This document shows positions 3 to 23,479 of a stretch of 39,825 nt of DNA, one piece after another. Under the pieces are notes generated by a model. The model had not been told where the DNA came from. It saw nothing but the letters and a program-made list of their open reading frames with translations, and made no database searches. The position numbers and the translations under genes were made by a program. How positions within the stretch are numbered: the stretch's first letter is position 1; the number at the start of each line of letters is the position of its first letter. Source of the DNA: Candidatus Margulisiibacteriota bacterium (GTDB lineage Bacteria; Margulisbacteria; Riflemargulisbacteria; GWF2-35-9; DYQY01); NCBI GenBank assembly GCA_028706105.1, contig JAQWCF010000004.1, positions 1 through 39,825 on the forward strand, written 5' to 3'.

Positions 3-134
3 GTAAATAAACCAGATATGAAAATACGCAAAATGAAATCAAGATGGGGTTCTTGTAACAGAGCAAAAAAGAAAATTACAATTAATTATGAACTTGTAAA
101 AGCTCCTAAAAATTATGGCAAGGATTTTATCTGA
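3..134 (+). pseudogene. 3'-truncated YgjP-like (DUF45, SprT/M48-like) metallohydrolase fragment
   Basis: The frame starting at base 3 is open from the window edge and ends with TGA at 132-134. It reads as the middle of a YgjP/DUF45 hydrolase: a basic stretch, then the family hallmark RWGSC (bases 42-56), then ITINYELVKAP, which in the family precedes the HExxH zinc site. Just after AP-K-N the similarity stops and the frame ends within eight codons, so the zinc-binding half is absent. The same bases (from about 111) enter the adenylation domain of the next gene in another frame. This is a broken gene joined to an NRPS gene, either by a real rearrangement or by an assembly or contig-edge artefact. 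The family call rests on the WGSC context and is fairly secure; the cause of the break is not known. Confidence 0.6.
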
Positions 135-2244
135 TGGTAATATCCAGTTTATTGGAAGAAAAGATTTTCAGATTAAAATAAGGGGTTATAGAATTGAACC
201 AGGAGATATTGAATCTTGTATGGAGAGTATAGATGGAATTTCAAAAGCAGTTATTGTAAGTCCAGAAATTAATGGCAATAAAGTTTTAGTTGCTTATTAT
301 AATTCATTTCAGGAGATACCTCAGAATGAATTATTAGCAAAAATGCGATTGTCTCTCCCTTCTTATATGATCCCAAATTTTTTCCAAAAGTTGGATAGTA
401 TTCCTTTATCACCCAATGGTAAAGTTGATAGGAAGGCATTGATTTCTTTACCAATTAGCGTTCCAGACCAAAACATACAAAGTTTAAGTTCTGATGAAGC
501 GAAAGAGTCTGTAAAAAGAGTTTGGGTAAACATATTAGGAGAAAAATTTTCAAGTGATTGTGCCTTTGTGAGTATGGGAGCAGATTCTTTAGAGGCTATC
601 AAAATTGCCTCAGAATTAAATGTTTTAGGCTATAAATGTAGTTATTTGGATATTTATAAGAGTTTTTCTTTTGATGACTTTTATAGTACATACATTGATG
701 ATGAAAAAATTGATGATATATTATTTGCGAATCAAGTGTTAGAAAAGGTCTTTGGGCAAGGGGTTGTGATTGAAAATGTTCATCATTCAAAGTTGCAGAA
801 AAGAGTAATTGAACTAAATACTGACTTGGAGAAAAAGTTTTTAGATTATGAGAAAATAATCGAGTTTTGTCATGATAGATTTGATTTTAGTCTTCAGCCT
901 CAATATTTTTCTAATAAAGAATATATTAGACTAGATGAAATGAGTGCTAAAAATTTATTATCAGAGCTATTTAGAAGTGAAGGGTTGATATTTAAAGAGT
1001 TTTTATCTAAAGAAAAAAGATATAGGTTAGTCGATCCGTTATATTCATTTGATTTACGTAAGTTTTATAGAAATAAATATTTTGTTTCTAAAGTGAGAAT
1101 AGCTAGTAACTCGGTTAATAACGTCAGAAGAGCAGTTGCGGACCTTATGAATAAGAACGATCTTTTGCGAGCGTGCTTAGTTAAAACTGGGCTAGATAAA
1201 TATGCTTGGGATATTTTCGATGAGTGTAATTATGAAATTCCTTGTTTGGACCTATCAGGTTATGAAGTGTTTTCTAGTTACGATTTTATTTATAATGTTT
1301 TGAGTGAGTACTATATTAATAAGAATGAATATAGAAAATTTTTATTTAGGGCAATAGTTGTGAAAATAAATTTGAGTGAGACTTTTTTGTGGTATTTTAT
1401 GGATGATAGTATTCACGATGATTATGGCAATCAGTTAATTGATAGCTATTTATTAGAAGTTGCTAAAAGTGGTTATAAAGATTATCCAACAACAGCTTCT
1501 TATCAGGATTTCTTGAATAAAGTCATTATAAACAAATATGACAATGAAGAAAAACTAATTTGTGATTTATACTTGGATGATTTTAATAATCATACAAAAA
1601 TGTATGCTTCTTTTATTAAGAAAATGATAGCAAGCAATCCATCATCAGAAAATTTCAGTTATAAATTTAAATTACCACAAAGTAGCGTTGATGAGCTTAG
1701 TTTAGCGTTGGAAGTATTTACTCTTTTTGCTCGTTATCATTTTCCTTTTACTAAAGTTCCGATAGTTTTTTTGCATAATACTAGATTTTTTTCTTCTGAA
1801 GAATTTGTTAACAGCATTGGAGCCTTTATTGATGAGGTTCCTCTAATTATTAATACTGAGCTAAATGTAGAGGCAAATCTTAATTATATAAAGTCAAGTT
1901 TGGCATATGTTAATTCCCATGGAATACATTTTAAAAATATTTTACTTAATACAAAATTTAAAAACAAAAAGTTGCAACAAAAAGTTAAAAAGATAGTTGG
2001 AAAACTTGCTGAGACAGACAGCTTGTTGTTCTTTAATTTTAAACAAGGAGACATTCAGATAGATGAACTTTTTAGTGAAAGTGATGAACTAGTAATTAAT
2101 AGATGGCTGAAAGGTATTAGGTTTGTTATAACAATAATGTCTGGCTCTTGTGAGGTTTTTATTCGCTTTCCTTATGCAGTAAACTCTGTAGGGTTTAGAG
2201 AATATCTTAATAAGAGTTTTACTGAAATTATAGGTGAGGAATGA
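115..2244 (+). CDS. NRPS fragment: adenylation C-terminus, carrier domain, degenerate epimerization/condensation-like domain
   Basis: A nonribosomal peptide synthetase piece whose front is missing. Residues 4-33 match the end of an adenylation domain (DGNIQFIGRKD and core A8 KIRGYRIEPGDIE), and NGKVDR at 101-106 is core A10 with its conserved Lys. A carrier domain follows at about 125-195, with MGADS placing the phosphopantetheine Ser at 158. Residues about 205-709 resemble the condensation/epimerization superfamily: DLLR at 349-352, SIGAFIDEVP at 567-576 (like epimerization motif GWFTxxxP) and FFNF at 639-642 (like FNYLG). The expected HHxxxDG is replaced by MDDSIHD at 429-435, so classical catalysis is unlikely. 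No ribosome-binding site precedes the ATG at 115; the real start was probably about 400 codons upstream, beyond the junction near base 111. The next module starts about 30 bases downstream. Confidence 0.7.
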   Translation: MARILSDGNIQFIGRKDFQIKIRGYRIEPGDIESCMESIDGISKAVIVSPEINGNKVLVAYYNSFQEIPQNELLAKMRLSLPSYMIPNFFQKLDSIPLSPNGKVDRKALISLPISVPDQNIQSLSSDEAKESVKRVWVNILGEKFSSDCAFVSMGADSLEAIKIASELNVLGYKCSYLDIYKSFSFDDFYSTYIDDEKIDDILFANQVLEKVFGQGVVIENVHHSKLQKRVIELNTDLEKKFLDYEKIIEFCHDRFDFSLQPQYFSNKEYIRLDEMSAKNLLSELFRSEGLIFKEFLSKEKRYRLVDPLYSFDLRKFYRNKYFVSKVRIASNSVNNVRRAVADLMNKNDLLRACLVKTGLDKYAWDIFDECNYEIPCLDLSGYEVFSSYDFIYNVLSEYYINKNEYRKFLFRAIVVKINLSETFLWYFMDDSIHDDYGNQLIDSYLLEVAKSGYKDYPTTASYQDFLNKVIINKYDNEEKLICDLYLDDFNNHTKMYASFIKKMIASNPSSENFSYKFKLPQSSVDELSLALEVFTLFARYHFPFTKVPIVFLHNTRFFSSEEFVNSIGAFIDEVPLIINTELNVEANLNYIKSSLAYVNSHGIHFKNILLNTKFKNKKLQQKVKKIVGKLAETDSLLFFNFKQGDIQIDELFSESDELVINRWLKGIRFVITIMSGSCEVFIRFPYAVNSVGFREYLNKSFTEIIGEE

Positions 2245-2275
2245 TACAATAGTTTTATTATAGGGAGTGAGATGT

Positions 2276-5257
2276 TTGGTAAATATTTATAATTTATTTT
2301 TAGAACAAACAAAAGATAATGAAGAAAATATTGCAATAATTTACGATGGCACAGAGTATAGCTATGCTTATCTTTTAGAAGAAATTAAGAACATTTCCGA
2401 GAAATTACAAATTAATGGACTTATTGAAGGTGAGGTTGTTGCTCTTTACATGACATGTTCTTTTCTTTCTGTTGCTAGTCTTTTGGCTATATGGAAATTA
2501 GGTGCAGCAGTCCTTCCTTTTGATGAGAATACTCCAAAGATAAGGTGTCAAAATTATTTAGAGCAGTCAAAGGCTAAAATGATTTTGACTGAGAAGGATA
2601 ATCTTCTTAATATTCAGGTTTGCAATGTAAATGAATCACTTAAAAATGAAAATATTGCTTATATAATGTTCACCTCTGGTTCAACTGGGAATCCTAAAGG
2701 AGTCAAAATTAGTGGAAAAAATATTGAAAGCTTGATAGCTGCTTGGCAAGAATTTTATGGATTATTAGATTTTTTGCCACGTGTATTACAACTTTCTAGC
2801 ATTAGCACTGACATGTTCATTGGTAATCTTCTCAAATCTTTGTTTTTTTCTGGCACTCTAATTATTGTAAATAAAGAAGATAGGTTAAATCTTGCAAGTA
2901 TGGTTCAAGTTTTTGATAAGTATAAACCGAATCTTATTGAATTTATCCCTTCTTATATGAGACTGGTACTAGAGCAAGTTATAGAAAATAGTCTGGGTAC
3001 CACTTTTTTAAAACAAATAGTTGTTGGTGGAGAGGCTTGCTCCCAATTAGACTACAAGTGGATGATTGCTAATTTTCCCTTAGCAAGGGTGGTAAATGGT
3101 TACGGTCTTACAGAGTGTACTATTGAGAGCGTTGTATATGAAACTAAAAACATGGATGATAGAATTAATGAGCAGCGAATGTTAATTGGTAAACCACTAA
3201 ACAATACTCATGTATTTGTTGTTAATAGTAATCTAGAACTGATTAGTGATGGTGAATGTGGCGAGCTGTTAATTGGTGGAGATGGTGTTGCTGAGGGATA
3301 TTTGGATGAGGCAATGGACAAAGGTAAGTTTATAAGATTTAAGGGAATTAATTGTTATAGAACTGGAGATACAGTACAAAAAATGTCTTCGGGAGATTTG
3401 TTGTTTTTGGGCAGGAATGATGAGCAAATACAAGTAAATGGATATAGGGTTGAATTAAGTGAAATAAATGGAGTGTTAGGAGAAATAAGTGGAGTAAAAG
3501 AAGCTGTAGCGTTGAATGTTGGGAAGGACTCCTTTAAACCTCAGGTTGTCGCTTTTGTTGTGGCAACTTTAGATAAAAAAAGCATTCTAGCTGAGATTAT
3601 ATTAAAATTGCCGGAACAAATGGTTCCTACTGAAATCATTTTATTGGATTCGCTTCCAAGGACAGTTAGTGGGAAAATTGATAGGCAAGCTTTAATTTCT
3701 TCCCTTAAAACAAAAATGCACGAAGAAAAAGAAAATTATCAACCCAAAAATGTAATAATTGCAATTCTTGGAGAAGTTTTAGAAAAGCCATTGTTTATGG
3801 ATAGAAGTATTGGTGCGCAGGGTGCTGACTCCTTAGCAATGATTAGAATTCTTCATAAACTAAAGCAACAAGAATTCAATGCAAAAATATCAGACATTTA
3901 TGCTACCAATAGCATTAATTCCTTTATAGATTTAATGATTTTATCAAAGGAGCAAGAGCCCTTGATTCAATATAGCTGTAAGCGCGAATTAATAAGCGCT
4001 GAGCTTATAAAAACTAAACTAGGTGAGTTGCGACAGTCAGAAATAGTTTTTTTTAATAAATTGATTTTAAGTGGAGTTGAAAAAATACTTGATTTGGAAT
4101 CCTTTAAAGCAAGCTTTAGAACAATTCAGAGAGAAAAGTACAATATTGATTATTTATTGTTTAATGATAAATCTTTTAATGAGCTTGCTGAGAAACATTT
4201 TTGTTTGTTAAAAGAACAAGATTTATTGAGATCAACACTTAATGTCGAGGATAAATTGGCTTGGTTAGTTTTTAAGTTGCCAGAAGATATCTTGCCAATA
4301 TTGGTAGATTTAAGTGATTATCATTTTGAACAATCACAAATTCTTAGTATGTTGCCTTTTATTAAAGAATATTATCTTATTAAAGATAAATTAAGTAGGT
4401 TCCCTTATAGGCATTTGTTTGTAAAGATCTCCGACAATAAGTTTATGTTTGTTTTTTGTATGGATGAATCCATTCATAACAAGGTTGGTGCAGATATTGT
4501 GAAGAGTTATTTTTCTTTAGGAAAGCTAGACAATACTGTTCAATATGAGGAATATTTAAAGTTATTAAAAAAAGGTTCCTTGTTAAGTGAAGAGGATATA
4601 GTTAAAGAATTTAGGTTGAAAGAATTTAATAATGCAGTAGAAAGTTTTCCAGAATATTCGTTGGAACAGATTAGGTTATATAATTATGAGTTTGTTTTAG
4701 ATAAGCAAAAAGATAGCTACACTCAGTCCTTAGAGATATTTAAGAAAATATCAAACAATTTGTTTGAGTTAGATGTACCATTTTTTATGGTTCAAGATAC
4801 GCGGGCATATCAGGATGGTATTTTTAGCAAGACTATAGGTGAGTTTACTGACTTTATTCCTTGTGTGTTAAGTTTAGGAGGAACTTTTGAAAAATTAATT
4901 AATGATATAAATTTTCTAAGAAAGAAAGCGACATTAACGTTTACCAATATGAAATCTTTTAAATGGTTTTCTGTTAGGTATACGCATCCAATTATTAAAA
5001 AATTTGCAAGCAACGTAAAGCTAGAGAGAGAAGGAATGGAGAAGATTGTTGTTTTTCACTATAGAACTGAAGTAGATGATAGTACCGAGTTATATAGTAC
5101 AGAAAACATCAAACAAAACATGCACTCAAGTTGGCCAACAGCAATTACTTTTAATTTTGCACAATCAGGGGATAAGTTGTTTCTCAGTTCTTATTTGCCT
5201 TGTGACAAAAATAGGTGGTTAGAAATAGTACGGGAAATAGAAGATGGAAAAATATAG
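2276..5257 (+). CDS. NRPS module: adenylation, carrier, degenerate epimerization/condensation-like domain
   Basis: A complete NRPS module protein of about 993 residues. The start is probably TTG at 2276, because GGGAG at 2263-2267 is well spaced for it; an in-frame GTG at 2267 overlaps that site. The adenylation domain (about 1-475) has TSGSTGNPKG (133-142), Asp179 in the A4 region (amino-group contact of amino-acid substrates), NGYGLTE (275-281), YRTGD (361-365), GRNDEQIQVNGYRVE and SGKIDR (465-470, Lys467). The carrier has QGADS with Ser519 as the phosphopantetheine site. The last about 420 residues parallel those of the preceding gene: DLLR, MDESIHN at 729-735 in place of HHxxxDG, QDTR at 840-843, and KTIGEFTDFIP. 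The specificity pocket read by hand is D-M-G-E-I-V-G-I-E-K, closest in my memory to an ornithine code. The peptide product is unknown. Confidence 0.85.
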   Translation: MVNIYNLFLEQTKDNEENIAIIYDGTEYSYAYLLEEIKNISEKLQINGLIEGEVVALYMTCSFLSVASLLAIWKLGAAVLPFDENTPKIRCQNYLEQSKAKMILTEKDNLLNIQVCNVNESLKNENIAYIMFTSGSTGNPKGVKISGKNIESLIAAWQEFYGLLDFLPRVLQLSSISTDMFIGNLLKSLFFSGTLIIVNKEDRLNLASMVQVFDKYKPNLIEFIPSYMRLVLEQVIENSLGTTFLKQIVVGGEACSQLDYKWMIANFPLARVVNGYGLTECTIESVVYETKNMDDRINEQRMLIGKPLNNTHVFVVNSNLELISDGECGELLIGGDGVAEGYLDEAMDKGKFIRFKGINCYRTGDTVQKMSSGDLLFLGRNDEQIQVNGYRVELSEINGVLGEISGVKEAVALNVGKDSFKPQVVAFVVATLDKKSILAEIILKLPEQMVPTEIILLDSLPRTVSGKIDRQALISSLKTKMHEEKENYQPKNVIIAILGEVLEKPLFMDRSIGAQGADSLAMIRILHKLKQQEFNAKISDIYATNSINSFIDLMILSKEQEPLIQYSCKRELISAELIKTKLGELRQSEIVFFNKLILSGVEKILDLESFKASFRTIQREKYNIDYLLFNDKSFNELAEKHFCLLKEQDLLRSTLNVEDKLAWLVFKLPEDILPILVDLSDYHFEQSQILSMLPFIKEYYLIKDKLSRFPYRHLFVKISDNKFMFVFCMDESIHNKVGADIVKSYFSLGKLDNTVQYEEYLKLLKKGSLLSEEDIVKEFRLKEFNNAVESFPEYSLEQIRLYNYEFVLDKQKDSYTQSLEIFKKISNNLFELDVPFFMVQDTRAYQDGIFSKTIGEFTDFIPCVLSLGGTFEKLINDINFLRKKATLTFTNMKSFKWFSVRYTHPIIKKFASNVKLEREGMEKIVVFHYRTEVDDSTELYSTENIKQNMHSSWPTAITFNFAQSGDKLFLSSYLPCDKNRWLEIVREIEDGKI

Positions 5258-6437
5258 TCTTTCATTTCAACAAGAAGAGATGTGGATTGCTGAACAGTTT
5301 TATTCTACTGGAAGTTTATTCAACATTGGTGGTTATTGTAAGCTAGATGCTGAGATTAATCATCAAATATTAGAGAAGGCAATTTCCATTGCTTTGAATA
5401 GCTATTCCAATTTCAAAGCACATATTTTGGTTGATGATGATGGCGTGCCTTATCAAGTTTTTGATGATTTTGTAGCTTTTGATTATGAATTTATAGATTA
5501 TCTTGTTGACGATAAAAGTGCAATGGATTGGATGCAAAAGAAAATGGATAGTTCTTTATTATCTAAAGAGAATAAGCTCATTTATGTGGCAACAATAAAG
5601 ACAACTCAAACTCAATTTTATTTTTTAAAAATACATCATTTGTTGTCAGATTTTTTTGGAGTTAAAATTATGCTAAATAAAATGATGACAGTATATCAGC
5701 AATTAATAGAGAACATTAATCCTGCCATTTTTACTACACAAGAGAGTGATTATCGCGACTATTTGATTGTGCAAAAAGAGTATATTAACTCGATAACTTG
5801 GCTGAAAGACAAAGAGTATTGGCAGAGGGAACTGAATATTAAAGAAAAGGACTTAAGTTTATCATCACCAATAAATAACGCCGATTTTAAAAGTAATGTG
5901 AAATATATGGTTATAGATAATTTTAAAAAGGAAAGATTAACTGCAATTGCTAAGGAACATAATGTTTCAGATTTTGTTTTTTGGCTTTATCTTGTTGGAG
6001 TAACATTTTGTGAGATGGACGCTTCTAGTTGTTATTATTTGGGTGTACATTTTTTGAATAGATTAAATAGAAAGGAAAAGAATAACCCTGGCCTTTTCAC
6101 TAATTCTTTACCAATAAAAATAAGCAACAGTGAATTTAAGAAGGACATTTTTGATTTATCAAAGAGGGTAAGACAAGCTTTCAGGCATCAGCAATTTCCT
6201 ATTAGAAAACTTTCTTTATCAACGGATTTTTATTCGGTTATAGTTTCTTTTGAAAGTTATCAGAAGTCAGAAGATATTTATGGATATACTTTAAAAAGTA
6301 AAGAATCCGTTTGTCCAATAACTTTTTATATTGATAATCATCAGATACAATTGGTTTATCATAAAAGTATAGGTGAAGAAAAAATAAATGAAGTAATTTC
6401 AAGTTTGTGGGAAACAATAAATAGGGTCATATGTTAA
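5244..6437 (+). CDS. free-standing NRPS condensation domain protein
   Basis: A 397-residue protein that is a single condensation domain, the enzyme unit joining two carrier-bound aminoacyl groups. The N-terminus YSLSFQQEEMW (4-14) matches core C1 (SxxQxxxW). HHLLSDF at 131-137 is the active-site HHxxxDG motif with both His and the Asp kept but the final Gly changed to Phe. NRLNRKEKNNPGLFTNSLPI near 270-290 matches core C5 (GxFxNTLP). It overlaps the end of the preceding module gene by 14 bases, so the two are probably translated together. With the two carrier proteins upstream it could supply the bond-forming step that their own degenerate terminal domains appear unable to perform. No carrier or thioesterase domain is attached, so how the product is released is not evident here. 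Confidence 0.8.
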   Translation: MEKYSLSFQQEEMWIAEQFYSTGSLFNIGGYCKLDAEINHQILEKAISIALNSYSNFKAHILVDDDGVPYQVFDDFVAFDYEFIDYLVDDKSAMDWMQKKMDSSLLSKENKLIYVATIKTTQTQFYFLKIHHLLSDFFGVKIMLNKMMTVYQQLIENINPAIFTTQESDYRDYLIVQKEYINSITWLKDKEYWQRELNIKEKDLSLSSPINNADFKSNVKYMVIDNFKKERLTAIAKEHNVSDFVFWLYLVGVTFCEMDASSCYYLGVHFLNRLNRKEKNNPGLFTNSLPIKISNSEFKKDIFDLSKRVRQAFRHQQFPIRKLSLSTDFYSVIVSFESYQKSEDIYGYTLKSKESVCPITFYIDNHQIQLVYHKSIGEEKINEVISSLWETINRVIC

Positions 6438-6465
6438 AATGATTTTATCATTAGGAGGTAACAAA

Positions 6466-7164
6466 ATGAAAAAAAGATTAATAGTGGTGGTATGTTTGTT
6501 AAGTGTTCTTACAGTATTTGCAGTTGCATATAATGGCGATAGTAAAATCAATATGATTTCTGTTAACGGTAAAGGCGAGATTTCTTTTGAACCAGATATA
6601 GCTTATGTTTCAGTCGGAGTAAATGGTGTTTTTCAAGATGTAACAAAAGGGCAAAAAGAAATTAATAATAAAATAAATAATTTTTTAGATAAAATAAAGG
6701 GAATCGTTCCAAAAGATAATATTTCTACAGAGAGATTTAGCGTGAATAATACATATGAGTATGTTTCCGGAAAAAGACAGTTCGCAGGCTACACAATAGA
6801 CCAGAATCTGAAGATTAAGTTAAAGGACTTAAAGTTGATTGGTGAAGTGATTGATTTAGCAGTTGAGAATGGTCTAAACAATGTTGGTCAGATTATTTTT
6901 TCTAGTTCTAAGATAGATGAATATAAACAAAAAGCCTTAAAACAATCTTTGCTTGATGCCAAGAAGAAGGCTGAGCTAATTGCTGGGACTATGAATACTG
7001 GGAAAATTAAAATTAAACAAATTCAAGAAGCAGGAAGCTTTGCTCAGCCCTTAAGAGCAGAAGGCATGCAAATGAAAACTTTGGCCGCAGCTGATACAAG
7101 TACACAGTACCAAGTTGGCGATATGATAGTAAATGCTCAAGTCAACGTGATATACGAATTTTAA
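6466..7164 (+). CDS. SIMPL-domain (DUF541, YggE-like) exported protein
   Basis: A 232-residue protein starting at ATG 6466 behind a strong AGGAGGT (6453-6459); an ATG at 6439 in the same frame has no such site. The first about 22 residues (MKKRLIVVVCLLSVLTVFAVA) form a signal peptide or membrane anchor. The mature part begins ISVNGKGEISFEPDIAYVSV, the usual opening of SIMPL/YggE proteins, followed by the alternating VxVNxxYEY and Lys-rich helix (KQKALKQSLLDAKKKAELIA) seen in the family, and ends in a beta strand. These periplasmic or surface proteins have no firmly known activity; some are linked to oxidative stress. It lies 28 bases after the NRPS condensation gene and 10 before purE, so it is probably cotranscribed. 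Confidence 0.85.
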   Translation: MKKRLIVVVCLLSVLTVFAVAYNGDSKINMISVNGKGEISFEPDIAYVSVGVNGVFQDVTKGQKEINNKINNFLDKIKGIVPKDNISTERFSVNNTYEYVSGKRQFAGYTIDQNLKIKLKDLKLIGEVIDLAVENGLNNVGQIIFSSSKIDEYKQKALKQSLLDAKKKAELIAGTMNTGKIKIKQIQEAGSFAQPLRAEGMQMKTLAAADTSTQYQVGDMIVNAQVNVIYEF

Positions 7165-7174
7165 GGAGGCAGTA

Positions 7175-7624
7175 ATGAAAGACGTTTTAGTAATAATGGG
7201 AAGTAATTCCGATATGCCAGTTATGCAGGAATGTATAGATACTTTAGAAAAATTTGGATTAAGTTGCCAAGTGGAAGTAGCTTCTGCTCATCGCACGCCA
7301 GAAAAGGTTCTAGGAATTGCCAAAGATGCTGATAAAAAATTTAAAGTTATTATTGCTGCTGCTGGTAAATCTGCTCATCTTCCTGGTGTTATTGCAGGGC
7401 ATACAATCTTGCCAGTAATTGGTGTTCCGATGAAGACTTCTGACTTAGGGGGTGTGGATTCGTTATACTCTATTGTGCAAATGCCAAAGGGAGTTCCTGT
7501 TGCTACAGTTGCAATTAATGGAGCTATGAATTCTGCTATTTTGGCTGCACAAATGATAGGGATAAGTAATAGTGCTGTAAAAGAAAAATTATTAGCACAT
7601 AAAGAGGAAATGAAAAACTCATAA
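7175..7624 (+). CDS. purE: PurE, N5-carboxyaminoimidazole ribonucleotide mutase
   Basis: PurE catalyses the carboxyl-transfer step that gives 4-carboxy-AIR in purine synthesis. The 149-residue length fits the short bacterial form. MGSNSDMPVM (8-17) is the nucleotide/phosphate loop, SAHRTPEKV (37-45) carries the catalytic His, and AGKSAHLPGVIAGHTILPVI is the conserved core (usually AGGAAHLPG, here with Lys-Ser). AAGGAGG lies just before the ATG. The stop overlaps the next start as TAATG. No purK is seen in the window, so whether it works as a mutase (class I) or as an AIR carboxylase cannot be settled from context; the sequence looks like class I. Confidence 0.95.
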   Translation: MKDVLVIMGSNSDMPVMQECIDTLEKFGLSCQVEVASAHRTPEKVLGIAKDADKKFKVIIAAAGKSAHLPGVIAGHTILPVIGVPMKTSDLGGVDSLYSIVQMPKGVPVATVAINGAMNSAILAAQMIGISNSAVKEKLLAHKEEMKNS

Positions 7625-8127
7625 TGGAAATTCTCTCAAGCATTAACATTGTTGATGTTGTAGTTGTTTTATTGTTAATATATTTTAGCTATAGAGGCTA
7701 TATTAGTGGGTTTTTTAATATTTTATTTGATTCATTAGCGGTTATTGTTTCTTTTTATGTAGCAAACCAGTATTCGTTGGTGCTTAAAGGATGGATGGCT
7801 GATTATTTGAAGTTTACTGTTTCTTGGTCTGGTTTTGCGGCTTATATTTTGGTCTATATGCTTAGTTTTGTTTTTTTTGTAGTGTGGGGAAGAATAGTTA
7901 CGAAAATCCTCAAAATAAGCCCCATGGGCATAGCTAATAGTATAGCTGGGTTGGTCTTGAACTTCTTTAAGTGGTCTTTGTTGATATTTATTCTAATTGT
8001 TATTATTGATAAGATTACTATTGATTCTGTTGGAGCTTATCTGGACAAATCTTTTGTCTATAAAAGTTTTAATAAGGTTTCTAATTGGGAATTTGTTAAA
8101 GAGTTTATTCCAGACCTCACCCCCTAA
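7624..8127 (+). CDS. cvpA: CvpA-family membrane protein
   Basis: A 167-residue integral membrane protein with about four hydrophobic segments (roughly 10-45, 60-85, 95-115 and 118-137). Near the start it has the family-typical pattern IxxVDVVVVLLLIYFSYRGYISGF (family: D-x-x-x-x-hydrophobic-x-x-x-x-G-x-x-x-G). Members are annotated after colicin V production and are also tied to envelope integrity, but the molecular role is not firmly known. It shares one base with purE (TAATG), an arrangement seen elsewhere with purine genes. The gene closes the upstream operon: a long hairpin terminator starts 35 bases after the stop. Confidence 0.8.
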   Translation: MEILSSINIVDVVVVLLLIYFSYRGYISGFFNILFDSLAVIVSFYVANQYSLVLKGWMADYLKFTVSWSGFAAYILVYMLSFVFFVVWGRIVTKILKISPMGIANSIAGLVLNFFKWSLLIFILIVIIDKITIDSVGAYLDKSFVYKSFNKVSNWEFVKEFIPDLTP

Positions 8128-11669: not shown

Positions 11670-14426
11670 TTACAGGCTAAGTCCTTCTTTGATAAGCATG
11701 CTGATTAGCTCATCATGGTCTTCGGTTTCTTTTCTAGTTATTAAAGTTGGAGTTAGTAGTTTTTTCTCTGATTGAGATTTTTGTTTTTTTAGATAGCCAA
11801 TAACTTGATGTAAACTTTTTTTGATGCTGAGTATTTCAGTGAACGATTCACTTTTTAATTGTTTGATAGACGACTCTGCTTCTTCTTTGATAGAGTTAAC
11901 ATTTGCGAGCGTTTGTTCTAGTTGCTCGTAGAGTTCTTGCTGTGTTTGCGATTGGAGTTTATTTAGCTTGATGCTAGATTCTGTTAATTGAGTTTTCTCT
12001 GTTTTGAGTTGGTCCTGAAGAACGATTATTTTTTGGAGTGCATCTTGTAGTCTAGTGTCGATAGTTTCTTCTACCATCATCTTTAACTGCCTGATACTTT
12101 CTTGTTGTGTTTTTTGGTTTTCATTTTTAAGATTTGTCATTTCGGTTGTATGAGTTTGTTTGATAGTTTCAATGTTCTGGATAGTGCTGTTTAAGTCAGC
12201 AAAAACGCCGGTTTCTAAAGTTGTCTTGATCCCTTTAACTTGAACGATAAGTTTATTTAGAACCATTTGTTCGTTTTCAACATCTTTGGTTATATCGTGG
12301 ATGTTTTTGATGGAGTCTGTTTTGATTTCTTCGAGGTAAGTTTTGACAGAGTTAAGTTGTTCTTGCATTTTTAGGTTAGCATCTTGCTCTAATTGAACGA
12401 ATTGTTCTTTGTTTTGGAGAAGCAGTTCTTTTTGTGATTTTTCGAAGGTAAGTTTGAAGTTATGAAGAAGCTCAGTGGCTTCTGATATTTGACTTTCAGC
12501 CTTTTGGTGGATTTCTGATCTTAGTTTACTTAAGTCATTCATTGCGGTTTCAATAAGTTGAAGCTTTTCAGTATCAAGGTCTTGTTTGATTAATTGTATT
12601 TCTTGTTCTGTTTCTTGTTTTAATTCATTGACCATGAGTGTCGTTTGTTGCAATTGTTGTTCGTTTTCTGCTTTAGATATTTCTAATAAATTATCCAGTT
12701 TCTGTTGAACTTGGTCGTAAAAAAGTTGCTCATGTTCTGTGATTTGTGTTTTGACTAGTTCTAGTTCATTCTCGTTAGTGGATTTTAAAATATTCATTCT
12801 ATTGAAGAGTTCATTAATGCTGTTGGATATAGCTTTATTGGAGCTTAACTTGACTTCTTCAAGCGTTGTTTCGTTTATTTCTTTTAGTTTTTTGAATTCG
12901 TCATGGATAGCTTGGATGTCTTCAGTTTTGTCTATTTCTTGAAGTTTAGATTGTAGTGTTTGCAAGTCTTTGTAAGTGTTTTTTAGCATTATTTCTTGTT
13001 GTGCTTCAAACCTAGAAGTTAAATCTTTGATTTCTTCTTTGGTTTTACTGCTAAATTCTTCAATATTTCCTAAAATATTTTTAAGATTTTCTGTGCTTTC
13101 TTGTTTCGTGCGTTTGGAGATAGTTCTTAGTTCTTCTTCATTATTTTTTCTAAGAAGCTCCATTTCTGTTTGTAAGTTTGATTTTAGTTCAATAATTTCT
13201 GTTTCTACTTCTGTTTTTTGTTTAGTAGCTGATTGTCTTATTTCAGAAATTTCTTGAGTTGCTGTTGCCGAGAGTGTTGCTATGTCAGAGGACAAGGACG
13301 CTTTGACTGTTTCTATTTCGGATAAGGCCTTACCAATAGTATTTCTAATGTAATCTTGGCTAATTTTTGTAAATTTTTTGAAGTTTTCTCTGCTCGTGCC
13401 AGTGTCATCAAGTTCTTGTAAAGCAGAGTTTTTGGCTTTCTCAATTTCTACAATCATGGTTTGTTGAAGTTCTATTAGTTGGTCAGTTAATGTTTCTATT
13501 TTCACATCAATTAGTTTGTTTTTAGAATTAATTTCAGTAATGGCAGTTTCTTTTAATATTTCAAAGTTAGTAAGATTGTTTGTTATTGTTTTTTCAAATT
13601 CTTTAATTGTGGATTCCTTTGTGTCGTCAATGTATTGTTTGAAAGCAGAGATTTCTAGCATGGTTTCTTTATTCTTATTTTCAATAGAAGTTGTAGCTTC
13701 ATTTGTTTTTAAAGATATTTCTTTAGATAGGTTTTCTTTTTCTTCGGCAATACTTTGCTTGAAAGCTGTAGTTTGTTTGGCAAGTTCTTTTTTACCTTCT
13801 ATTATTTCTTGTTTGAAAATCGATAATTCAGTTTGCGTTTCTTCGCTTTTAGTGTCGATGTTTATTAGCGTTTCCTCTTTAATCGAGGCTATTTCTTCTA
13901 TTGTGTTATGTTTAGTTTGTTCTATAGTTGTTTCAAGCTGGGCGTATTGGGTAGCAAGGTTTTCCTCAGCTAATTTTATGCTGTGAGTGATTGTGTTATT
14001 TTCTATGGAAATTTCATTAACTAATTTACTTTTTTCTTCTGATATTTCCTTTTTGAAATCAGAGAATTGAGTTGATATTTCACTGTGAGCCTTGGCTTTC
14101 ATTTTGGAAACAATGTCTTCATAGTGTCTCATCAGATAAGTTTCTTGTTCTTTTAATTTTCTAAGGCTAAGAAGTTTGGCTGTCTTAAATTTGTTAATTT
14201 TTCTTTGAAAAGAAATTTTGATTTTTTTAAGCATACTTATTTCCTTATCAAGTTGTTTTTTAATTTTTTTAGTTCTATCTACTGCATGGAATAGTTCAAA
14301 AAAGTTTTGGACAGAGATTTGATCTCCTTGCTTGGAGACTATTTTTAGGTTAGGGTTTTCAAGTTTGATCGTTCTATTTTGATCAGTAGCGGTTACAGTA
14401 ATATTTTTTTCTTTTTCTTTTCCCAT
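11670..14426 (-). CDS. 918-residue coiled-coil protein
   Basis: A long cytoplasmic-type protein that is almost wholly coiled coil from about residue 50 to 890: a Glu/Lys/Gln/Thr/Ile-rich sequence with hydrophobic residues at heptad spacing and many repeats of the type IxxEIxxxKxE. A non-coiled N-terminal segment (about 1-45, ITVTATDQNRTIKLENPNLK) and a short C-terminal tail (DHDELISMLIKEGLSL) flank it. No Walker motif is present, so it is not an SMC ATPase, and there is no signal peptide or membrane segment. It could be a scaffold, cytoskeletal filament or cell-shape protein; the sequence alone does not say. GAGGAT precedes the ATG. It is transcribed toward the 660-residue gene, with three bases between stops. 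Confidence 0.8.
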   Translation of the reverse strand: MGKEKEKNITVTATDQNRTIKLENPNLKIVSKQGDQISVQNFFELFHAVDRTKKIKKQLDKEISMLKKIKISFQRKINKFKTAKLLSLRKLKEQETYLMRHYEDIVSKMKAKAHSEISTQFSDFKKEISEEKSKLVNEISIENNTITHSIKLAEENLATQYAQLETTIEQTKHNTIEEIASIKEETLINIDTKSEETQTELSIFKQEIIEGKKELAKQTTAFKQSIAEEKENLSKEISLKTNEATTSIENKNKETMLEISAFKQYIDDTKESTIKEFEKTITNNLTNFEILKETAITEINSKNKLIDVKIETLTDQLIELQQTMIVEIEKAKNSALQELDDTGTSRENFKKFTKISQDYIRNTIGKALSEIETVKASLSSDIATLSATATQEISEIRQSATKQKTEVETEIIELKSNLQTEMELLRKNNEEELRTISKRTKQESTENLKNILGNIEEFSSKTKEEIKDLTSRFEAQQEIMLKNTYKDLQTLQSKLQEIDKTEDIQAIHDEFKKLKEINETTLEEVKLSSNKAISNSINELFNRMNILKSTNENELELVKTQITEHEQLFYDQVQQKLDNLLEISKAENEQQLQQTTLMVNELKQETEQEIQLIKQDLDTEKLQLIETAMNDLSKLRSEIHQKAESQISEATELLHNFKLTFEKSQKELLLQNKEQFVQLEQDANLKMQEQLNSVKTYLEEIKTDSIKNIHDITKDVENEQMVLNKLIVQVKGIKTTLETGVFADLNSTIQNIETIKQTHTTEMTNLKNENQKTQQESIRQLKMMVEETIDTRLQDALQKIIVLQDQLKTEKTQLTESSIKLNKLQSQTQQELYEQLEQTLANVNSIKEEAESSIKQLKSESFTEILSIKKSLHQVIGYLKKQKSQSEKKLLTPTLITRKETEDHDELISMLIKEGLSL

Positions 14427-22099: not shown

Positions 22100-23479
22100 T
22101 TAAAATACAAACGATCCAAATGCTGTCCAGCCATCCATTCCTGTGCACCATTGATACCCAGCGCCTAATGCAAGTTGTCCTAAATTAATTTTTAATCCAG
22201 TTTGTATTTGGGTATAACTCCAGTTGCTTCCCCAACTATCTAAGTTGCTAAAGTATTTTGGTTGAATTGCTCCGTTATGTTCAAAGATAAAACTAAGAGG
22301 TTGGAATAGTAAAAACTCTGCTCCGTAGCCCCAATAAATACCAAGCCCATTCGGTATTCCTCTCTTGAAAGATAACCCTAGGTCGAAATGCATTGCTCCA
22401 GTTTGAAATGCCCCTCCAGCTGTTCCAAATAAATTGTAGAATTGGAATGAATCTGAGTTATTTCTAACTTGATAAGCACTTATTCCATAGCCAGTAAAAG
22501 GCGTGCTTTTCCCAGCAGCTGGAATTGCGGTATAAGATCGGTAGGAGAAAGTGTCATTATATAAATTCTTTTCAAGATCTTGGAGTAGACTGTAATTTAA
22601 GACTTGCATTTGGTTTTTCCCAAAAAGGCGAGTGAATCCATAGCCATCTGCAAAGGGATAATTGTTAAATAGATAATAAACGCCAAAGTATTGATTAAGG
22701 TCTAAATTGGAGCTCCAGCCGACGGTCGATTTTTGAGTTTTGACTTTGTCTGGGTAGAAGATGTTTCCCATAAAACTGCCCGCTAAGTTATCTACTAGAT
22801 TATCAAAAAATCCATCTTTGTTAGATTCATAACGTGTTGTTTCTAGTTTGTTAACTACCAAAACTTTACTGCTAGCTAAGATATAATTATAGAGTTCGTT
22901 TTTGAGCTCCTCGGCAAGCCTTGTGTCATTGATAGGCAACTCTACTGTTTTGATTGCATCTAGAAGGAAACTAAAGTCATATTGTTCAAAGTTACCAGTA
23001 AAAAACTCTGTTTTATTGATAAATCCTCGTTCTGTTAGTACCCCTTTACGGATTAAATTATCATAAAAATTAAGAAGAGATATTTTTGTTTTTGCTAAGG
23101 TAACCATATCATTTAGATTAATTTTTGAGCCTGGATAAATCCCATTTTCTAGAGGTTTCAAAACATCCCCACGATGAGTGATCGAACCCTTTTCCATGTA
23201 TTTAAAGTAATGTTCATATGACATAGCTTGTATTAAAAGGTTGTACCAATCAGAAAAGTCTTTTGATTCAAACTTTCTATAATTAAACTCATATTGTGAG
23301 TTGATTACCTTAACGTCTTGTTTGTAGCCACTGGAGGATTGTGTTGTTTTAGTGCTCTTAGAACCTGAAGAAGTTACATTTTTGTTAACTTCGGCTTCAA
23401 CGGAATCAATATTGGCAAAAGTAAAACAACTTAATAATATAGATAGAAATAGATAGGTGATACTTTTAGGCATTGTCAT
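22100..23479 (-). CDS. exported protein with outer-membrane beta-barrel-like C-terminus
   Basis: A 459-residue exported protein. Residues 1-29 form a signal peptide (hydrophobic core ITYLFLSILLSCFTF, possible cleavage after VEA). A Ser/Thr/Lys-rich linker (about 30-55) and a helical region (about 65-240) follow. From about 255 the sequence alternates aromatic and small polar residues with many Gly, Asn and Tyr, ending AFGSFVF; a terminal Phe is the usual outer-membrane beta-barrel targeting signal. I do not recognise the family. AAGGAG lies 8 bases before the ATG. If correct, it is the best single indication in the window that the organism has an outer membrane. It converges on ettA and is divergent from glutamine synthetase. 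Confidence 0.75.
   Translation of the reverse strand: MTMPKSITYLFLSILLSCFTFANIDSVEAEVNKNVTSSGSKSTKTTQSSSGYKQDVKVINSQYEFNYRKFESKDFSDWYNLLIQAMSYEHYFKYMEKGSITHRGDVLKPLENGIYPGSKINLNDMVTLAKTKISLLNFYDNLIRKGVLTERGFINKTEFFTGNFEQYDFSFLLDAIKTVELPINDTRLAEELKNELYNYILASSKVLVVNKLETTRYESNKDGFFDNLVDNLAGSFMGNIFYPDKVKTQKSTVGWSSNLDLNQYFGVYYLFNNYPFADGYGFTRLFGKNQMQVLNYSLLQDLEKNLYNDTFSYRSYTAIPAAGKSTPFTGYGISAYQVRNNSDSFQFYNLFGTAGGAFQTGAMHFDLGLSFKRGIPNGLGIYWGYGAEFLLFQPLSFIFEHNGAIQPKYFSNLDSWGSNWSYTQIQTGLKINLGQLALGAGYQWCTGMDGWTAFGSFVF

Follow-up and report, generated by a model that had tools for sequence, protein, structure and literature searches.

A condensation-superfamily domain behind the carrier, with an acidic residue at the second catalytic histidine position, in the NRPS proteins of an uncultured Margulisbacteria order

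The two multidomain NRPS proteins encoded at the start of the window (the 39,825-nucleotide stretch of the Candidatus Margulisiibacteriota contig JAQWCF010000004.1 analysed here) end in related domains, X1 and X2. Together with their counterparts in other genomes they form a distinct post-carrier subtype of the condensation superfamily, which lies C-terminal to an adenylation-carrier (A-T) pair and is conserved across the order. The role that we favour for it, with a probability of about 0.42, is that of a re-tooled acyl-transfer domain which acts on the residue bound to the upstream carrier and has a carboxylate where condensation (C) domains have their second catalytic histidine (His2).

NRPS protein 1 is present in the window with its 3' part (115-2244), comprising the end of an A domain, a carrier (T) with its phosphopantetheine site MGADSLEAI at 574-600, and X1, in which an N-terminal extension of ~100 residues (649-966 by alignment, with SLQPQYF at 889-909) precedes the condensation-superfamily core (967-2241, delimited by AlphaFold2, Foldseek and alignment). 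The protein is cut by the contig edge, and the earlier reading of 709 residues describes a partial protein. Its remainder was located on contig C37 of the same genome, where the terminal ORF covers a C domain and the greater part of an A domain, and where the last 142 bases correspond to window positions 114-255 with 141 of 142 bases matching; the joined protein is C-A-T-X, about 1540 residues long. Positions 1-113 encode in frame 3, at the contig edge, a fragment of a YgjP-like metallopeptidase (PF01863, E 1.2e-10) unrelated to NRPS, and since the true continuation is found on C37, window bases 1 to ~113 are probably a chimeric contig end. NRPS protein 2 (2267-5257, 996 residues) is A-T-X, with matches to PF00501 (E 9.9e-57), PF13193 and PF00550, the carrier site QGADSLAMI at 3818-3844 and X2 at 3977-5254 (again by AlphaFold2, Foldseek and alignment). 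NRPS protein 3 (5244-6437) is a stand-alone C domain (PF00668, E 5.7e-43) with an intact HHLLSDF at 5634-5654. The full locus of the window's genome (G000) is thus [C-A-T-X][A-T-X][C], and the same three genes, including the orthologue of NRPS protein 2, are intact in a second species of the genus (G001), with 1536, 993 and 398 residues. X1 and X2 make up the last ~430 residues of their proteins; the extension of the X1 type is also seen in G001, in G005 and in homologues from Paenibacillus and Eleftheria, and is absent from X2. Downstream lies a SIMPL/DUF541 - purE - cvpA flank (6439-8127), which is conserved beside X-bearing NRPS genes in G000, G001 and G006. Elsewhere in the window, two long minus-strand ORFs of 918 and 459 residues (11670-14426 and 22100-23479) have no Pfam match.

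X2 aligns with X1 at E 3e-17 and 27% identity, in agreement with the relationship proposed in the earlier note, and the motifs MDDSIHD (1399-1419) and MDESIHN (4460-4480) lie exactly where they had been placed. Their codons differ, ATGGATGATAGTATTCACGAT encoding the former and ATGGATGAATCCATTCATAAC the latter, with serine as AGT in one and TCC in the other, so the likeness is at the protein level. The landmarks in X1 are DLLR (1156-1173), DLS (1246-1263), HNTR (1774-1785), SIGAFIDEVP (1813-1842) and FNF (2029-2049), and those in X2 are DLLR (4217-4234), QDTR (4793-4804), TIGEFTDFIP (4832-4861) and VFHYRT (5051-5071). Most of these had been recognised before; however, the X2 counterpart of FNYLG is VFHYRT and not the later TFNF. 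DLLR, DLS, IGxFxDxxP, HNTR and QDTR line up with the corresponding landmarks in C domains. The Margulisbacteria copies have kept the GR-type Arg as well as the GxFxDxxP loop, and where GxFxN normally has its Asn, all 13 members of the family, namely ten from the order and three homologues, have Asp.

The loss of both histidines, as previously claimed, is evident, but the register had been off by one. In three independent alignments (HMMER against SrfA-C and PvdL, hhalign against the order's own C domains, and a 49-sequence MAFFT alignment), HHxxxD falls on [D/N/S]-[E/D]-[S/A]-I-[H/D]-[D/N], one residue downstream of the register first proposed. The equivalents in X1 are D(1402)-D(1405)-S-I-H-D(1417), with Asp at the His2 position (1405-1407), and those in X2 are D(4463)-E(4466)-S-I-H-N(4478), with Glu at that position (4466-4468). 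Among the ten copies of the order, the position of the first histidine (His1) is D, N or S, whereas the acid at the His2 position is invariant (Glu in eight, Asp in two); the His of SIH is near-invariant, and the motif Asp is retained, being Asn in two copies that include the one in NRPS protein 2. All ten share the form [MLI][DNS][ED][SA]I[HD][DN], which is far beyond chance.

Structure prediction, which the earlier note had suggested as a check, gave a condensation-type fold for both terminal domains. AlphaFold2 modelled X2 with a pLDDT of 82.9 and a pTM of 0.79, and X1 with 79.7 and 0.77; Foldseek searches of the PDB returned more than 200 matches for each at E <= 0.001, and the top matches were all C, E, Cy, CT or X-domain structures (probability 1.00, E down to 1e-16). 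In the X2 model the motif is placed between a strand and a long helix, as HHxxxDG is in C domains (PMC11546977). On the predicted structures, X is therefore a condensation-superfamily domain. A named subtype was sought among the Foldseek matches and rejected, because they spread over all types of the superfamily with none preferred. Profile searches gave a mixed outcome: PF00668 matches five of the ten order copies (best E 1.1e-9, some above the curated cut-off) and, outside the family profile, shows no match to the window's own two proteins, while TIGR01720, the epimerization (E) model, matches none of the ten copies and nothing in any genome of the order. In the other direction, a profile of the ten copies reaches SrfA-C (E 3e-4) and PvdL in the PDB (HMMER), and hhalign relates X to the order's own C domains with a probability of 95.3.

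The placement of X within the superfamily comes from a maximum-likelihood tree with 29 C and 7 E domains as references, curated Cy, dual, glycopeptide-X and CT sequences lying outside its scope. The ten Margulisbacteria copies and the three homologues form one clade (100/100) separate from all of these references, and X falls outside the E clade (99/97). Likening the domains to E domains by way of EGHGRE and TIGR01720 is consequently unwarranted, as X stands outside the E and C clades and fails the E model. The homologues were obtained in a tblastn search of plasmids with the copy from G002, which detected this terminal domain in three A-T proteins, two on plasmids of Paenibacillus sp. IHB B 3084 (WP_134914683.1 and WP_250636808.1) and one in Eleftheria terrae (WP_301260677.1). 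Their motif is HHxxxDR in two and SHxxxDA in one, this HH-bearing branch being sampled from plasmids only. Within the X clade the Margulisbacteria copies are monophyletic (100/99) and keep the replacement, as the earlier note had anticipated. Taken with the HH- and SH-bearing homologues, this suggests that the loss is derived and that the histidines were, most simply, lost once, in the ancestor of the order, inside a distinct post-carrier C subtype; the tree is unrooted, and the polarity is taken from the general occurrence of HHxxxD across the superfamily. Judging from the Paenibacillus and Eleftheria homologues, HHxxxD was most likely still present in the X ancestor. The two copies in the window had been taken as independent retentions of the motif, whereas a single ancestral replacement followed by duplication is the simplest reading of the tree.

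Each of the seven genomes from the order (Candidatus Termititenax and Marinamargulisbacteria-labelled MAGs), which is known from MAGs only, contains X, and none of 67 other Margulisbacteria genomes does, one of the same class among them. Candidatus Termititenax are termite-gut symbionts. A set of 383 relatives, mostly from other phyla, yielded no further full-length match; weak profile matches in four genomes of other phyla were discarded as one ordinary C domain and three unrelated or wrong-frame sequences. A scan for the motif over 84,980 species, again a search proposed at the outset, returned Candidatus Termititenax SulCav, GWF2_35_9 and three Marinamargulisbacteria-labelled MAGs, all of them Margulisbacteria. 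The ten copies extend over two families and five genera with no internal stop codon in any, and the same replacement in every sampled member of the order indicates that the domain is used. The NRPS genes lie between bioB and SIMPL/cvpA-type genes in G001, G003, G004 and G006; SIMPL and a cvpA-like gene thus also adjoin the X-bearing NRPS in G003 and G004, purE was read at the locus in G001 and G006, and mnmA/nadA are nearby in G001, G003 and G004. This shared neighbourhood indicates vertical inheritance across two families. It points to a synthetase locus between bioB/mnmA/nadA and SIMPL-purE-cvpA, which the genomes sampled from this uncultured order retain. In the literature on Margulisbacteria NRPS, we found nothing on the X domain.

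Between G003 and G004, X has a dN of 0.115 and a dS of 0.60 (dN/dS about 0.19), as compared with a dN of 0.136 and a dS of 0.58 in the C domain and a dN of 0.112 and a dS of 0.76 in the A domain. Between the window species and its sister, where synonymous sites are near saturation, the X domains are 55% and 58% identical and the C domains 44% and 49%. Purifying selection on X is as strong as on the adenylation domain, and X is maintained. Monophyly, the condensation-superfamily fold and the dN/dS constraint together point to a selected function and not to random decay, as the earlier note had argued; each of the functions it named, docking, a new acid/base chemistry or carrier recognition, is possible.

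Every copy comes after a carrier. In nine of the ten order copies X is at the protein C-terminus, right behind the carrier, and the copy in G002 is a separate gene directly behind a C-A-T gene; post-carrier position, membership of the clade and Asp in the GxxxDxxP loop are common to all 13. What comes next in the assembly line differs among them. For three copies (G000, G001 and G006) the next protein starts with an A domain and has no C domain, and for two (Paenibacillus pHD01 and Eleftheria) the associated A-T protein has a C domain reduced to its C-terminal lobe, the Eleftheria gene being encoded on the other strand. An intact C domain comes next for three (in G005, and as the stand-alone C in G000 and G001), and five end the line with no visible acceptor module (G002, G003, G004, G006 and pHD02). 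Motif anchoring gives the A-domain specificity codes as DVGD[I/V]GSIYK in module 1 and DMGE[V/I]GGIEK in module 2; we presume that they resemble ornithine-type or basic codes, a weak lead. With one ACPS-family phosphopantetheinyl transferase match per genome, and two in G006, an ACPS-family enzyme would have to serve the NRPS carriers. The single match in the window's genome is at G000:C44:10763-11038 (L085), despite the presence of NRPS carriers there.

In the acyl-transfer reading, X would receive the aminoacyl or peptidyl chain of the preceding carrier and pass it to the aminoacyl-carrier of the next module where an A-T pair follows without its own C domain; where X is the last domain of the line, the acceptor would be a soluble or intramolecular amine. 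Placing the acceptor amine would fall to the invariant carboxylate at the His2 position. It is favoured by the copies in G000, G001 and G006, in which X occupies the slot of the expected C domain (T-X and then A-T), and it fits the copies with a missing or halved C as well as those that end a line. Against it stands the loss of both histidines, since HHxxxDG with its second His, the mark of an active condensation domain, is not found in the order's X. So does the lack of a visible acceptor module behind the five copies that end the line. Not every C domain depends on His2, whose role is under debate (PMC11546977, PMC8097023); we found no example in the literature of an active C domain with Glu in its place. 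Alternatively, X may be a catalytically silent platform: bound to the upstream carrier, it would recruit or position another enzyme, for example the stand-alone C domain, or gate the carrier. The absence of the histidines and the location right behind the carrier would both suit such a role, for which C-like domains with degenerate motifs offer published precedents, namely the glycopeptide X-domain with HRxxxDD and the I domains (PMC11546977, PMC8949500), and it better explains the copies that precede an intact C domain: as the downstream gene in G005 has its own C, and G000 and G001 have a stand-alone one, X is not needed for elongation there. The platform is, however, harder to reconcile with the five copies in which X fills the slot of a missing or halved C, with a likely ancestral type that kept HHxxxD, and with the neighbours bioB, SIMPL, purE and cvpA, among which no conserved trans enzyme is seen. 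Because His2 may be dispensable and degenerate C-like domains are known to serve as recruitment platforms (PMC8949500), acyl transfer stays short of even odds and the platform is a serious contender.

Other chemistry, such as epimerization, lactam-forming release or hydrolysis by the Glu/Asp together with the neighbouring conserved His, appears improbable. The slot behind the carrier is that of E domains, several loci end in X with no thioesterase, and the acid and the SIH His are both suitably conserved; residues of the ornithine or basic type, which we assume from the A-domain codes, can also lactamize. But X has neither a TIGR01720 match nor the EGHGRE glutamate and lies outside the E clade, and release as early as the first of the two modules would cut synthesis short. 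That X is a relic C domain on its way to loss is very improbable, even though the catalytic histidines are gone and PF00668 misses half of the members: decay is largely refuted by selection like that on the A domain, by protein identity above that of the C domains in the same proteins and by ten uninterrupted copies kept over two families and five genera. An assembly or frame-choice artefact in a single MAG, for which the chimeric first 113 bases might speak, is refuted by independent MAGs from other projects with the same domains. Returning to acyl transfer, the wider proposal of a working condensation-superfamily branch with a carboxylate for the catalytic His, which would act behind the carrier and form or release the product of a vertically inherited, order-wide synthetase, is more doubtful and is offered tentatively.

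Comparison with known systems further delimits the family. X shares with NRPS condensation domains (PF00668; LCL, DCL and starter C) the V-shaped CAT-like double fold, as predicted, along with DLS, LLR, the GR-type Arg, GxFx[D]xxP and the motif Asp, but the order's X has [DNS][ED] for HH and Asp for the Asn of GxFxN, sits behind the carrier and forms its own clade. Epimerization domains (TIGR01720) are alike in fold and post-carrier position and differ in the E model, HHxxxDG and the EGHGRE Glu, all of which X lacks, and in clade. The glycopeptide X-domain (HRxxxDD; Haslinger et al. 2015, as cited in PMC11546977) is likewise a C-like fold with a degenerate active-site motif right behind a carrier. 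Its motif, however, is absent from our alignments of X, its hosts are taxonomically unrelated, no P450 turned up among the ORFs inspected next to the locus, and no thioesterase is visible behind X. The Cy motif DxxxxD is matched at the same columns by six of the ten copies (DESIHD, DDSIHD, DEAIHD), whereas NESIHD, SEAIDD and DESIHN (twice) do not fit, and positions 1 and 6 do not always carry an acid. The closest relatives are the terminal domains of the Paenibacillus and Eleftheria A-T-X proteins, with the N-terminal extension, the post-carrier position and GxxxDxxP after a conserved Arg, which differ from the Margulisbacteria X in having kept HHxxxDR (two) or SHxxxDA (one). The family offers a natural before/after contrast on one fold, HHxxxDR against DESIHD, which, together with purifying selection, makes the His2 question directly testable.

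Some further features of the X-bearing loci may be recorded. The NRPS proteins that start with just the C-terminal lobe of C are encoded from L090:13165 onward in Paenibacillus pHD01 and on the minus strand from 25645 of L091 in Eleftheria terrae, and both clusters also have a GT17-like glycosyltransferase gene. The giant NRPS ORF of Paenibacillus pHD02 (L093) has, three times, an extra C fragment consisting of the C-terminal lobe only behind a complete C domain. In G005 (MFRH01000068, L021:4986-9917), the A domain is broken before motif A3 by an insertion, identified by eye as cobalamin-binding plus radical-SAM-like (CPYKCIYC), and is followed by T-X.
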